Source: an uncultured Gellertiella sp. (GTDB lineage Bacteria > Pseudomonadota > Alphaproteobacteria > Rhizobiales > Rhizobiaceae). Taken from it: a stretch of DNA of 64,000 nucleotides. Both the position numbers and the translations under genes were made by a program. The stretch is from NCBI RefSeq assembly GCF_963457605.1, contig NZ_OY735139.1, positions 1 through 64,000 of the forward strand, read 5' to 3'. Shown here piece after piece: positions 45,372 through 49,580 of this stretch (positions are counted from its first letter, which is position 1; each line of letters opens with the position of its first letter). The notes below the pieces were generated by a model. The model was not told the origin of the DNA, did no database searches, and saw only the letters and a program-made list of their open reading frames with translations.

Positions 45372-45470
45372 GAGTCTGTCAGGTTCAGATAGAACCTGAC
45401 AGACTCCAAGCAAATTTGTTTTCGTTTGTCTTTTCGCTCAAACGAGTTTGAGCGCTCAAACGAGTTTGGA
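45372..45470. repeat. Intergenic repeat: 15-bp inverted repeat plus 18-bp tandem palindromes
   Basis: Positions 45372-45386 and 45392-45406 are perfect 15-bp inverted arms (loop AGATA). They are followed by a T-rich stretch (45415-45434) and two copies of an 18-base unit CGCTCAAACGAGTTTGAG (45435-45452; second copy 45453-45468, ending differently), each containing the palindrome TCAAAC-GA-GTTTGA. The second copy runs into the trmFO 3' end and supplies its stop. This looks like one member of the small interspersed elements of rhizobial genomes. The hairpin could also act as a terminator between the convergent genes. Confidence 0.65.
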
Positions 45471-46895
45471 CGACGTGGCCGAAAGTCCGCCGGCGAGCCA
45501 GGTCCGGCAGGCCTCGAGTGCCCGGAGCGCAATCAGCTGGCGTTTCATGATCGTCTTGTCCTTGCCGCGAAAACGCTTGATGCCTTCGGGCTTGACGATG
45601 GACCCCGGTTCAAGCTCCGGGAACAGGCCGAAATTGATGTTCATCGGCTGGAAGGACCGCTTGCCCGGCTCATCCTCGGAAACCAGATGGCCACCGGTGA
45701 TGTGGTTGAGCAGCGCACCGAGTGCGGTGGTTGCGGGTGGCACCGAGGGTGCCTGGCCCAGACGTTCGGCGGCGGCAAAGCGGCCGGCCAGCAGGCCGAT
45801 GCTGGCGCTTTCCACATAGCCCTCGCAGCCGGTGATCTGGCCCGCAAAGCGCAAGCCCGGACGGCTTTTCAGCGCCAGCGTCGGATCGAGCAGCACAGGC
45901 GAGTGGATATAGGTATTGCGGTGCAGGCCGCCGAGACGGGCAAATTCCGCCTGTTCCAGCCCCGGGATCATCCGGAAGATGTCCGCCTGCGCCCCATATT
46001 TCAGCTTGGTCTGGAAACCCACCATGTTGTAGAGCGTGCCGAGCGCATTGTCCTGCCGGAGTTGCACCACGGCATAGGGCTTGACGGTCGGGTTATGGGC
46101 ATTGGTCAGCCCCATCGGTTTCATCGGCCCGTGCCGCAGGGTCTCGCGACCGCGTTCCGCCATCACCTCTATGGGCAGGCAGCCGTCGAAATAGGGCGTG
46201 CCTTCCCATTCCTTGAAGCCCACCGCATCGCCTGCAATCAGGGCATCCATGAAGCGGTTGTACTGGTCTTCGTCGAGCGGGCAGTTGATATAGTCCTTGC
46301 CGGTGCCGCCCGGCCCGACCTTGTCGTAGCGCGACTGATACCAGCAGATATCCATGTTGATGCTGTCCTTGTGGACAATCGGCGCGATGGCATCGAAGAA
46401 GGCAAGCGCTTCGGCTCCGGTTTCCTGCCGGATGGCCTCGGCGAGCGAAGGCGAGGTGAGGGGGCCGGTGGCGATGATTGCATTGTCCCAGTCGCGCGGC
46501 GGCAGGCCCGCCACTTCCTCGCGGGTGACGGTGATCAGCGGATTGCCGGCAATCGCCGCCGTCACGGACTGCGAAAAGCCGTCGCGGTCAACAGCAAGCG
46601 CCCCACCGGCCGGCACCTGGTTGCGATCGGCACATTGCATGATCAGCGAGCCCGCCAGCCGCATTTCGGCATGGATGACGCCCACCGCATTGCTGGTCGC
46701 ATCATCCGAGCGGAAGGAGTTGGAGCAAACGAGTTCGGCCAGATCATCGGTCTTGTGCGCATCCGTGCCCCGCACGCCGCGCATTTCGTGAAGAATGACC
46801 GGAATACCGGCGCTGGCGATCTGCCAGGCGGCTTCGGAGCCTGCAAGGCCGCCGCCGATGACGTGGATGGGGGAGGAGGGCGTTTTTTCTGTCAT
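45456..46895 (-). CDS. trmFO: Folate-dependent tRNA (uracil-54-C5) methyltransferase TrmFO
   Basis: This 479-residue flavoprotein makes ribothymidine-54 in tRNA using methylenetetrahydrofolate and FADH2. It has the dinucleotide motif [11 protein letters not shown] (13-23), the catalytic-region cysteines in [12 protein letters not shown] (Cys57) and [14 protein letters not shown] (near 237), and [19 protein letters not shown]. The length fits the family. The last codons (SKLV and TGA) lie in the 18-bp tandem repeat described at 45435, so the C-terminus has probably been shaped by that element. It is transcribed toward the conserved hypothetical gene at 44903. Confidence 0.95.
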
Positions 46896-47034: not shown

Positions 47035-47178
47035 TTAGCGGAAGTTGCGAGCCGCAATCGAGCGGATGTCGTTGCGGGTGATGCCGATATCGGACAGGGT
47101 CTGGTTGGACAGGTTGCCCAGCTCGTTCATGGTGCGGCGGTAGTTGATCCAGTTCTTGGCAGCGCGAATCGGGTTCAT
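47035..47178 (-). CDS. DUF1127 small arginine-rich protein (copy 1)
   Basis: This 47-residue protein of the DUF1127 family has the core NWINYRRTMNELGNLSNQTL followed by SDIGITRNDIRSIAARN. These micro-proteins are abundant in alphaproteobacteria and have been linked to sRNA/RNA and phosphate-related regulation in some species. The exact role here is unknown. Two consecutive ATGs exist (47181 and 47178) behind an AAGGA site; the second gives the usual MNPIRAAKNW. A TATAAG box lies at 47252-47247 on the minus strand. It has its own terminator, so it is monocistronic. Confidence 0.9.
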   Translation of the reverse strand: MNPIRAAKNWINYRRTMNELGNLSNQTLSDIGITRNDIRSIAARNFR

Positions 47179-47181
47179 CAT

Positions 47182-47586: not shown

Positions 47587-47733
47587 TTACTGGCCAACGG
47601 CTTCCTTGGCGACGCGGCGGATTTCCGAACGGTGGATGCCGAGGTCGTGGAGTTCGCGGTTGGACATGCGGCCGAGTTCGTTGACCGTCTGACGGAATTT
47701 GCGCCAGTTGTTGAAGCTGCGTGCGATGTTCAT
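47587..47733 (-). CDS. DUF1127 small arginine-rich protein (copy 2)
   Basis: This 48-residue paralogue of copy 1 has NNWRKFRQTVNELGRMSNREL then HDLGIHRSEIRRVAKEA. AAGGAAGACCACC precedes the ATG at 47733, and the open frame upstream is not family-like. It is transcribed alone, with its own terminator, and lies downstream of the sRNA at 47994-48115 on the same strand but after that RNA's terminator. Confidence 0.9.
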   Translation of the reverse strand: MNIARSFNNWRKFRQTVNELGRMSNRELHDLGIHRSEIRRVAKEAVGQ

Positions 47734-47993
47734 GGTGGTCTTCCTTTTCACGTGGTGTGGCCCTGCGGCTTGGGTCCGCCTGCCGAATTCGTTGAGACAG
47801 ATATATGTTGCGGCGCACAAATTGAAAAGCGCTGAAGCCACATGTCACCCATGCGCGCCGTGCATACCAACTGCCGGGGATAGCCATCTTGCTGCCCAAT
47901 TCGATGCGCGGGACAATGGTTATGCCTCGCTTCGGTCACGATTGACGGGTTTGCGCCTTTGAAAAACCGGCACTTTTGGATCTGGAGGCCCAT

Positions 47994-48115
47994 AAAAAAC
48001 GCCCTCCGGGGAGGAAATCCGGAGGGCGCATAGTTTAAACCGGTCCCCTGGGAGGAGGAGGGATGCCGGTCATGGTCCAGAGCGGGCTTGGGAGGAAAGG
48101 CTCCGCTCCGAAAGG
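47994..48115 (-). ncRNA. Alpha-r14-like trans-acting sRNA with three anti-Shine-Dalgarno hairpins
   Basis: On the minus strand three consecutive hairpins each expose a CU-rich anti-Shine-Dalgarno loop. Hairpin 1 (48110-48078) has an 8-bp outer stem and loop UCCUCCC. Hairpin 2 (48069-48040) has CCGG/CCGG and CCCU/AGGG stems and the nine-base loop CCUCCUCCC. Hairpin 3 (48028-48000) has a 10-bp perfect stem, loop AUUUCCUCC and six U, forming the terminator. The layout, the CCUCCUCCC loop and a length near 120 nt match the rhizobial alpha-r14 family (Smr14C/NfeR1), which represses many mRNAs by binding ribosome sites. The 5' end is an estimate. Confidence 0.85.
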
Positions 48116-48440
48116 CATCGATACGGAAAATCGCATCGAAAAATCGAATGAAAAGAGACTAATGGCAAATTGCCCCGGGGGAGAAAACAGGCCTGTGCTG
48201 CGACATTCTACTGAAACACTGTTTCGGAGGTCAAAGTGCTCCGCATCTCCCGAAATCGGGAAAAGGCATGCCATTCATGCATGTCTCGGTAATAGAGCTT
48301 ACCTTGGGGTCAGATTATCGCGAAAGTGTTAAGGAATTGTTAAAGCCGGCCCGGAACTGCTCCGTTTTGCGAAACGCCGGGCCGGGGACGGGCGGCGATT
48401 TCCTTTTCAGGACATAATGTTCTAGGTTAAATACAAGAGT
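48116..48440. other. Divergent regulatory region between sRNA and DUF2157 gene
   Basis: No gene is supported here. Contents are the AT-rich sequence just upstream of the sRNA on the minus strand (about 48116-48165), the inverted repeat CCCGAAATCGGG (48249-48260), and TTAA-GGAATTG-TTAA at 48329-48343, a perfect match to the CtrA consensus TTAA-N7-TTAA. It lies about 100 bases before the DUF2157 start. Confidence 0.45.
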
Positions 48441-48455
48441 ATGGCGGGGGAATTG

Positions 48456-49580
48456 ATGTATCGCGGACAATTGCAGCGGGACTTTGCGGTCTGGGTGGAA
48501 AAAGGGTTGGTGAGCCGGGAAACAGCCGATGGCCTGCTTGCCGAATATGACGGTCGCGAGCAGAGTTTTACGGTTGGCCGGGTGCTGATGATGCTCGCCG
48601 CGGTGCTGGTCGGCGCCGCCATTCTGCTGTTCATTGCCGCGAACTGGGACGGCATCCCGCGCGGCGGACGCGCGGCGCTGCTGATCGGGTTGATCTGGCT
48701 GTTTCATGCGGGTGCCGCCTTTACCGGCGGTCGCGCCACTGCCTATCTGAGCGGTGCCCTGCTGGTGCTGGGTGCCTCGGCCTTCGGCGCATCGCTGGCA
48801 CTGGTGGCGCAGATGTACAATCTTTCCGGCGACAATGTCTCCGCCGCCATGGTCTGGCTGACGATGACCGCGGCGACGGCCCTGCTGTTTCGCTCCGCCG
48901 CACTCACCTATTATGCGGGCCTGCTCGGCTGGCTGCTTTTTGCCGCCGTTCTCGGCGATGGCTGGGGCACATTCGGGACGCCTGATACCTATGCGCCGCC
49001 GCTTGCCGCTATCGGGGTCATCGCCATGGCCTATTATACCGGCGGCATGCGGGCCCGGCACCTTTGCTATCTGCTGCTGCTCACCTGGCTGGGCTGGGGC
49101 TATGTCAGCCCGCACGGCCCCTTCAACTCCTGGCTCTTCGTGGCCGCAGGCCTCATCCTGTTCCTGCTGGCGACGGTCCCGGCCTCGCCGCTTCATGCTG
49201 CGGCCCGGCGCGCCGGGGCGGCTCCGGCCTTCTACAGCTTCCTGCTGGCGCTGATGGGTCTTGGCCTTTACCAGGTGGAACATGGTGATCTCTTCAGTTC
49301 CGATGCGACCAGCCTCTCCACGGCGCTGCCGTCGATGGCCACGGCGACATTGGCGGTTCTTGCCATCGCTCTGGCCGGGCGGGACAATGCGGCGGTGCGC
49401 TACACCGGCTATGTCACCTTCGCCCTGGAAATCCTCTACCTGTCGATCGACATGATCGGCACGATCATCGGCACCTCGGGCGTGTTCCTGCTGTCTGGCG
49501 TGTTTCTGGCGCTGATCGCCTATCTGGTCATCCGGCTGGAGCGGCGATTCTCCGCAGCATCCGCAGCGAAGGGAGCCTGA
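48456..49580 (+). CDS. DUF2157 polytopic membrane protein
   Basis: This protein of about 374 residues has a soluble N-terminus of roughly 50 residues (FAVWVEKGLVSRETADGLL) followed by about ten hydrophobic helices, the pattern of DUF2157. The function is unknown. The pair DUF2157 plus GDYXXLXY is common in proteobacteria and the proteins are presumed to work together in the inner membrane. I prefer the ATG at 48456 because GGGGGAATTG precedes it; the ATG five codons earlier (48441) is possible. The gap to the next gene is two bases. Confidence 0.85.
   Translation: MYRGQLQRDFAVWVEKGLVSRETADGLLAEYDGREQSFTVGRVLMMLAAVLVGAAILLFIAANWDGIPRGGRAALLIGLIWLFHAGAAFTGGRATAYLSGALLVLGASAFGASLALVAQMYNLSGDNVSAAMVWLTMTAATALLFRSAALTYYAGLLGWLLFAAVLGDGWGTFGTPDTYAPPLAAIGVIAMAYYTGGMRARHLCYLLLLTWLGWGYVSPHGPFNSWLFVAAGLILFLLATVPASPLHAAARRAGAAPAFYSFLLALMGLGLYQVEHGDLFSSDATSLSTALPSMATATLAVLAIALAGRDNAAVRYTGYVTFALEILYLSIDMIGTIIGTSGVFLLSGVFLALIAYLVIRLERRFSAASAAKGA

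Follow-up and report, generated by a model that had tools for sequence, protein, structure and literature searches.

Small RNAs (sRNAs) of the rhizobial ar14 family (Rfam RF02344), to which NfeR1/Smr14C2 of Sinorhizobium meliloti belongs, are built of three hairpins with anti-Shine-Dalgarno (aSD) loop cores, the third hairpin being the terminator. The family has been described as carrying an identical CCUCCUCCC motif in every loop of an Hfq-independent transcript of ~123 nt, and NfeR1 silences ntrBC through its aSD loops (PMC10746234). NfeR1 is activated by LsrB, which binds a TGCA-N6-GCAT site at -72 to -60 of NfeR1 (PMC10746234). In Agrobacterium, the regulator VtlR is a direct activator of one DUF1127-type gene, atu1667 (PMC7486931), and in Brucella it is reported to control three such genes (PMC12595884). 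A further system, the CIN1 locus of Rhodobacter sphaeroides (CcaF1-CcsR1-4), has CCUCCUCCC-type RNAs on the same strand as, and beside, short DUF1127 genes, and the DUF1127 neighbourhood of such RNAs has already been described as the 'CIN1 locus' (PMC10253847). Here we report an additional ar14 member in this known kind of neighbourhood. It occupies positions 47994-48118 on the minus strand of a 64,000 nt stretch of DNA from an uncultured Gellertiella sp. (contig NZ_OY735139.1, positions 1 to 64,000), which we call the window. The analysis thus locates a copy of a known riboregulator, so far missing from the annotation, within a conserved neighbourhood, and a common DNA box ties this copy to the adjoining DUF1127 genes.

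The RF02344 covariance model matched the window at 48118-47994 on the minus strand. The match was full length (model positions 1-123 of 123) and scored 69.9 bits against a curated cut-off of 58.8, the E-value over the whole window being 1.4e-10. The remaining three window matches at curated Rfam cut-offs were tRNAs. An initial annotation, made from the letters of the sequence, had put an ar14-like RNA on this strand and named the ar14 covariance model as the way to check it; the search bore out its coordinates and strand with a score above the curated cut-off, and the element is a genuine member of the known rhizobial family ar14. At a relaxed threshold, the ar7 model reached 29.2 bits at the same site (cut-off 60), and the CcsR1 model (RF02791) 20.8 bits against a cut-off of 65.3, which leaves the sRNA outside the CcsR1 family. 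Two ar14 copies were found in the 4.17 Mb genome. The window copy is the weaker of them, with 69.9 bits compared with 103.1 bits for the second copy (L001, at C2:2364124-2364243), and on score alone L001 would be the better candidate for the orthologue of S. meliloti NfeR1. The narrower label 'NfeR1-like', given to the window copy in the initial annotation, is thus not supported. Copies of ar14 are widespread in the family: among 151 genomes sampled, its own genome included, at least 146 had a match at E <= 0.001 and at least 137 a match over the cut-off, both counts being lower bounds owing to stricter filters.

The minimum-energy fold of the sRNA consists of three hairpins with the loops CUUUCCUCCCAA, CCUCCUCCCA and AUUUCCUCC. 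On the minus strand, hairpin 1 spans 48076-48112 (loop 48088-48099), hairpin 2 spans 48038-48071 (loop 48049-48058) and hairpin 3 spans 47994-48029 (loop 48010-48018). The aSD core UCCUCC is unpaired in all three loops. Hairpin 3 has the form of an intrinsic terminator, with a stem of 10 Watson-Crick pairs and one closing G-U pair, then U, making six U in total; a terminator scan at the same place gave a shorter stem than the fold. The succession of three hairpins with aSD cores, and the final 10-bp terminator with six U, had both been read from the sequence in the initial annotation, and the fold reproduced them, with CCUCC in all three loops and the G-U pair added. In a test of the 141-nt stretch, the fold had a z-score of -3.27, with 1 of 200 shuffles equally stable. 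Three hairpin loops each containing CCUCC appeared in 0 of 2000 dinucleotide shuffles, and at least two such loops in 5 of 2000. Open frames do cross the region, including one of 79 amino acids at 48035-48274 on the minus strand, so that a segment of a coding frame, or C-rich hairpins arisen by chance, might be supposed. The Rfam E-value and the shuffles, together with the covariation and synteny given below, rule this out, and we regard the idea as refuted, with next to no probability left to it.

A further part of the initial annotation was not supported. It had relied on an 'ultraconserved' motif, and here the full CCUCCUCCC is confined to the middle loop, that of hairpin 2, whilst the outer loops read UUUCCUCC(C). 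Because CCUCCUCCC is present in one of three loops, and is not identical in every loop as PMC10746234 describes for ar14, we file the window sRNA under the Rfam family and not under that stricter description. The window copy also differs from the described family members in having a better-scoring copy elsewhere in its genome.

The sRNA is followed on its own strand by two genes for small DUF1127 proteins of 48 amino acids each, gene 1 at 47587-47733 and gene 2 at 47035-47181, both on the minus strand. Their PF06568 scores of 62.0 and 51.5 bits (cut-off 23.3) agree with the two DUF1127 neighbours that had been named initially; the genome has four DUF1127 matches, two of which are these neighbours. 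The conserved downstream neighbour is trmFO (45456-46895, minus strand; NF003739, 671.4 bits), which served as our synteny anchor. A divergent DUF2157 membrane protein gene (48441-49580, plus strand; PF09925, 114.6 bits) is the conserved upstream neighbour in the genus. The order DUF2157 / ar14 - DUF1127 - DUF1127 - trmFO was found in five of five genus genomes, that of the window included. With a short DUF1127 gene and a CcsR-like RNA adjoining on one strand, the locus has the layout of CIN1, and the DUF1127 neighbourhood of ar14 is an old and already described kind. It is unlike the R. sphaeroides locus in its low CcsR1 score, in that a single RNA comes first and in that the DUF1127 gene has its own box.

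For comparison with relatives, 80 named loci were fetched via trmFO, the best 80 of 591. They were searched with a covariance model of our own, R1, built from 28 of 32 ar14 sequences (the similar L007, L011, L012 and L022 were left out). The pairs of R1 are those of hairpins 2 and 3 only, since hairpin 1 was not recovered by RNAalifold from the MAFFT alignment. R1 includes the window copy, which scores 76.6 bits, and at least one further sequence, L020, taken from a locus searched later (L082); these matches arise by construction. At E <= 0.01, R1 gave 117 matches in the window and the 80 loci, all on the trmFO strand. At least one match was present in 65 of the 80 loci, where the 116 matches each lay upstream of trmFO on the same strand, and 63 loci had a match of at least 50 bits. 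The conservation in relatives that the initial annotation presupposed is therefore seen both in the trmFO loci searched (65/80) and within the genus (5/5). A DUF1127 frame stood upstream of trmFO in 73 loci, and both features were present in 63; in the two loci with ar14 and no DUF1127 (L085, L101), the contig breaks off close to trmFO. Within the 63 loci having both features, 112 of 113 ar14 matches lay no more than 600 nt from a recognized DUF1127, and in L044 and L047 the ar14/DUF1127 block is ~5 kb from trmFO. The Rhizobiaceae loci having ar14 show ar14 and then DUF1127; Mesorhizobium-, Phyllobacterium-, Brucella- and Aurantimonas-type loci show DUF1127, then one to six ar14 copies, then trmFO; and mixed orders occur in Nitratireductor (L084), Oricola (L103, L104), R. 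albus (L073) and P. haloflavum (L075). Two Aurantimonas genomes carry tandem ar14 arrays between DUF1127 and trmFO, of six copies (L096:5082-5887) and four copies (L106:2193-2687).

As in the LsrB/VtlR regulon, which comprises AbcR, DUF1127 genes and NfeR1, a TGCA-N6-GCAT box precedes both the sRNA and a DUF1127 gene here. The upstream box lies before the sRNA at 48268-48281 and the second before DUF1127 gene 1 at 47851-47864, both on the minus strand and both exact matches; each of the five genus genomes keeps the former as TGCATG-N4-GCAT. When the window and the 80 loci were taken together, 83 boxes fell within 113,692 nt of locus stretch (gene strand) and 60 within 1,845,166 nt elsewhere, a density of 7.30 vs 0.33 per 10 kb, or 22-fold, with five of the 81 sources dropped for having no feature and with counts that are not independent, the loci being related. 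Within 250 nt, 56 boxes precede DUF1127 and 23 precede ar14. The window sRNA and the DUF1127 genes beside it probably answer to a common regulator. The dense pattern of LsrB/VtlR-type boxes over the whole locus may be new: our literature search returned three papers that mention LsrB together with DUF1127 and none joining NfeR1 with DUF1127 or LsrB with CIN1, although key papers lay outside the search and this is no proof of novelty.

The position of the boxes also bears on whether the element is a free RNA at all. It sits directly upstream of the DUF1127 genes on the same strand, and attenuation upstream of a DUF1127 gene has been published for S. meliloti (PMC12218461), which could point to a terminator or attenuator in the DUF1127 leader and not to a trans-acting RNA. 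However, DUF1127 gene 1 has its own box between the sRNA and itself, and the separate boxes suggest that the sRNA and DUF1127 are not co-transcribed. Moreover, in 31 of the 63 relatives with both features it is DUF1127, not ar14, that opens the block, and the published attenuator works by an upstream open reading frame and Rho, not by a three-hairpin element (PMC12218461). We consider such a cis element very improbable.

Elsewhere in the genome, the sole RNA found with RF00519 (SuhB/AbcR-type; 46.7 bits) has a TGCA-N6-GCAT box, TGCATGGCAGGCAT, upstream (L164:1395-1408), and a LysR-family gene stands before it (L164:44-955). The same order is reported for vtlR-abcR (PMC7486931), and from its place alone we infer that the LysR-family gene is LsrB/VtlR.

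Behind the boxes of the DUF1127 set come a conserved CT at +35 (48 and 55 of 56) and, at about +57 to +63, a CTATxT-like -10, which would put the transcription start near box +70. In five second-copy ar14 genes the start comes 66-71 nt after the box, as in NfeR1. Most first ar14 copies start further from it, among them the genus orthologues at 143-172 nt and the window sRNA at 163 nt, which sets the latter apart from NfeR1 with its box at -72 to -60. As this distance exceeds the NfeR1-like spacing, a leader of some 80-95 nt before the window sRNA body is likely, and the transcript start may lie further upstream than the three-hairpin body, near 48198-48211. A generic promoter scan upstream of the sRNA found two promoter-like sites, TTGACC-N18-TAGAAT and TTAACA-N18-GATAAT, against 0.6 expected. 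Only the first (48205-48234, minus strand; 10/12 in the consensus scan) fits the box spacing, and loosely, since by eye its distance from the box exceeds that in other loci by ~10-12 nt; it is weak evidence for a possible start near 48198. A visual comparison also showed that in the genus (5/5) a CCC-spacer-GGG dyad has taken the place of the second half of the box region. It stands straight after the box, at 48249-48260 in the window and correspondingly in L119-L122, at a site occupied in many other loci by ATTGCACTGCACAA.

We consider it probable that the window sRNA belongs to the ar14 / 'cuckoo' sRNA family as its CIN1-locus (DUF1127-side) member, that it is under LysR-type (LsrB/VtlR) control and that it acts in trans by pairing with ribosome-binding sites. 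A regulator of LysR type, akin to LsrB/VtlR, would bind the TGCA-N6-GCAT boxes and switch on the sRNA together with DUF1127 gene 1, and the sRNA transcript would end at its own terminator, hairpin 3. The UCCUCCC loops, chiefly the middle one, would then base-pair with trans-encoded mRNAs at ribosome-binding sites of the GGGAGGA type, and such pairing with strong Shine-Dalgarno sequences would repress the targets by blocking translation, as reported for NfeR1. Perfect 9-mer complements (GGGAGGAGG before ATG) occurred at 7 sites, compared with 2 for the reversed pattern, one site being antisense to the sRNA itself. By eye, the frames behind the 9-mer sites include dihydroxyacetone-kinase-like, IclR-like and flavin-reductase-like proteins. 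The shorter GGGAGGA before ATG was found 80 times vs 15, and was rejected as a target list, as these sites are plain strong Shine-Dalgarno sequences. Control of DUF1127 gene 1 by the sRNA was likewise rejected, the Shine-Dalgarno sequence of that gene, AAAGGAAG, being by eye a poor complement of every loop.

A number of observations weigh against this explanation, the relatedness of the loci behind the box counts among them. The window by itself holds three TGCA-N6-GCAT boxes, the third elsewhere in it, against 3.9 expected, and so the window alone proves nothing; judged by eye, the conserved box region ahead of the window sRNA lacks its second half. In S. meliloti, according to work cited in PMC7486931, LsrB exerted no control over the abcR RNAs, and the regulator link therefore varies between species. 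At the presumed ntrB start of this genome (the frame directly upstream of ntrC) there is only a short GGAGG core. No R1 match at E <= 0.01 was obtained in 15 of the 80 trmFO loci, including all four titled Agrobacterium. Of six NfeR1-type copies in S. meliloti, only one is, according to a review, reliably detected by Northern blot under the conditions tested (PMC7143759). The published CTTAGAC-N17-CTATAT promoter scored 8/13 upstream of the window sRNA, a value reached by 53% of base shuffles, in a test that is weak in that the better-scoring L001 fails it too (7/13, 93% of shuffles). Finally, two of the three window loops are without the full CCUCCUCCC, and in two of the five genus genomes (L121, L122) nothing of the motif is left in loop 3.

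The lack of a clear promoter of the published type, in that weak test, and the loss of the loop 3 motif are also what might be expected of a decaying paralogue, once a full ar14, now little expressed or targetless, and kept mainly as the hairpin-3 terminator. The lower score of the window copy relative to L001 points the same way, as do the RF02344 scores of the genus orthologues (66.4, 62.5, 50.8 and 38.1 bits, the last two below the cut-off) and, by eye, the resemblance of Rhizobiaceae DUF1127 3' ends to ar14 hairpin-3 stems without the motif loop. Against decay, CCUCCC has been retained in loops 1 and 2 of every one of the five genus genomes, and changes in the stems are compensated. In the five orthologues, two-sided change was seen in 11 of 37 pairs and standard pairs in 152 of 168 cells, with hairpin 1 of L120 poorly aligned; in the wider ar14 alignment, 19 of 21 predicted pairs showed two-sided change. 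The U tail of at least five U and the upstream box are likewise kept in 5/5. The loop conservation expected by the initial annotation accordingly held for loops 1 and 2, and broke down at loop 3 in two of the five. We judge decay into a mere terminator to be unlikely, though well ahead of a cis element, and prefer a trans-acting ar14 sRNA. The genus copy is wearing down in comparison with other ar14 copies, and its regulon is therefore probably narrower.

The wear can be followed across the 117 R1 matches, in which CCUCCUCCC occurred three times in 65, twice in 29, once in 13 and not at all in 10. Three UCCUCCC were present in 102 of the 117, including the window copy, which combines them with a single CCUCCUCCC. 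Each of the seven other ar14 copies of the five genus genomes has two or three CCUCCUCCC and three UCCUCCC. By eye, a series can be drawn up of what stands behind the first DUF1127 gene in relatives. It starts with full ar14 (L073, L084), continues with ar14 that lacks the third motif (L075) and then with sequences having just one UCCUCCC (L044, L046-L048, L052), and ends in a plain terminator with an ar14 hairpin-3 stem (e.g. L037, L045, L069). R1 matches of 20-31 bits at this position in Rhizobium-type loci are read as remnants and not as working copies. The decay of aSD hairpins into terminators may be new, and the series suggests a route from an anti-Shine-Dalgarno RNA to a plain terminator.

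On visual inspection, the DUF1127 terminators in L037, L045, L069-L071 and others resemble ar14 hairpin-3 stems (ACGCCC..GGGCGTT) in which the CCUCCUCCC loop is replaced. L075 and the Rhizobium loci appear as intermediate stages of these stems.

We speculate, tentatively, that in Hyphomicrobiales the locus beside trmFO forms a single LsrB/VtlR module that co-induces aSD sRNAs and DUF1127 proteins and trades them off against one another. The sRNA copies would increase in number (an Aurantimonas has six), then lose their aSD loops and finally become plain DUF1127 terminators, with this genus midway, and the DUF1127 protein would be the RNA-binding partner of the adjoining sRNA, as CcaF1 is for CcsR. 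This wider proposal is considerably less probable, in our view, than the trans-acting sRNA itself. If it is true that sRNA and DUF1127 protein are co-induced, the role of rhizobial DUF1127 proteins, whether as aSD-RNA-binding partner or as PhoR partner, becomes testable in one small locus.

With regard to the synteny anchor, the literature search returned no paper joining trmFO with DUF1127, ar14, Gellertiella or CcsR1, key papers again lying outside the search. The start of the window trmFO (46869-46895, CCCTCCTCCCCC) was considered as an ar14 remnant or decoy and rejected as coincidence; CCTCC occurs near the matched start in 6 of 81 sequences. The second ar14 copy of the genome has a repeat nearby: ~0.7 kb before it, at L001:567-834, lies an inverted repeat with arms of ~30 nt, TACCAAGGATCACTGATGGGAACCCATTCGA, possibly a repeat or small mobile element.
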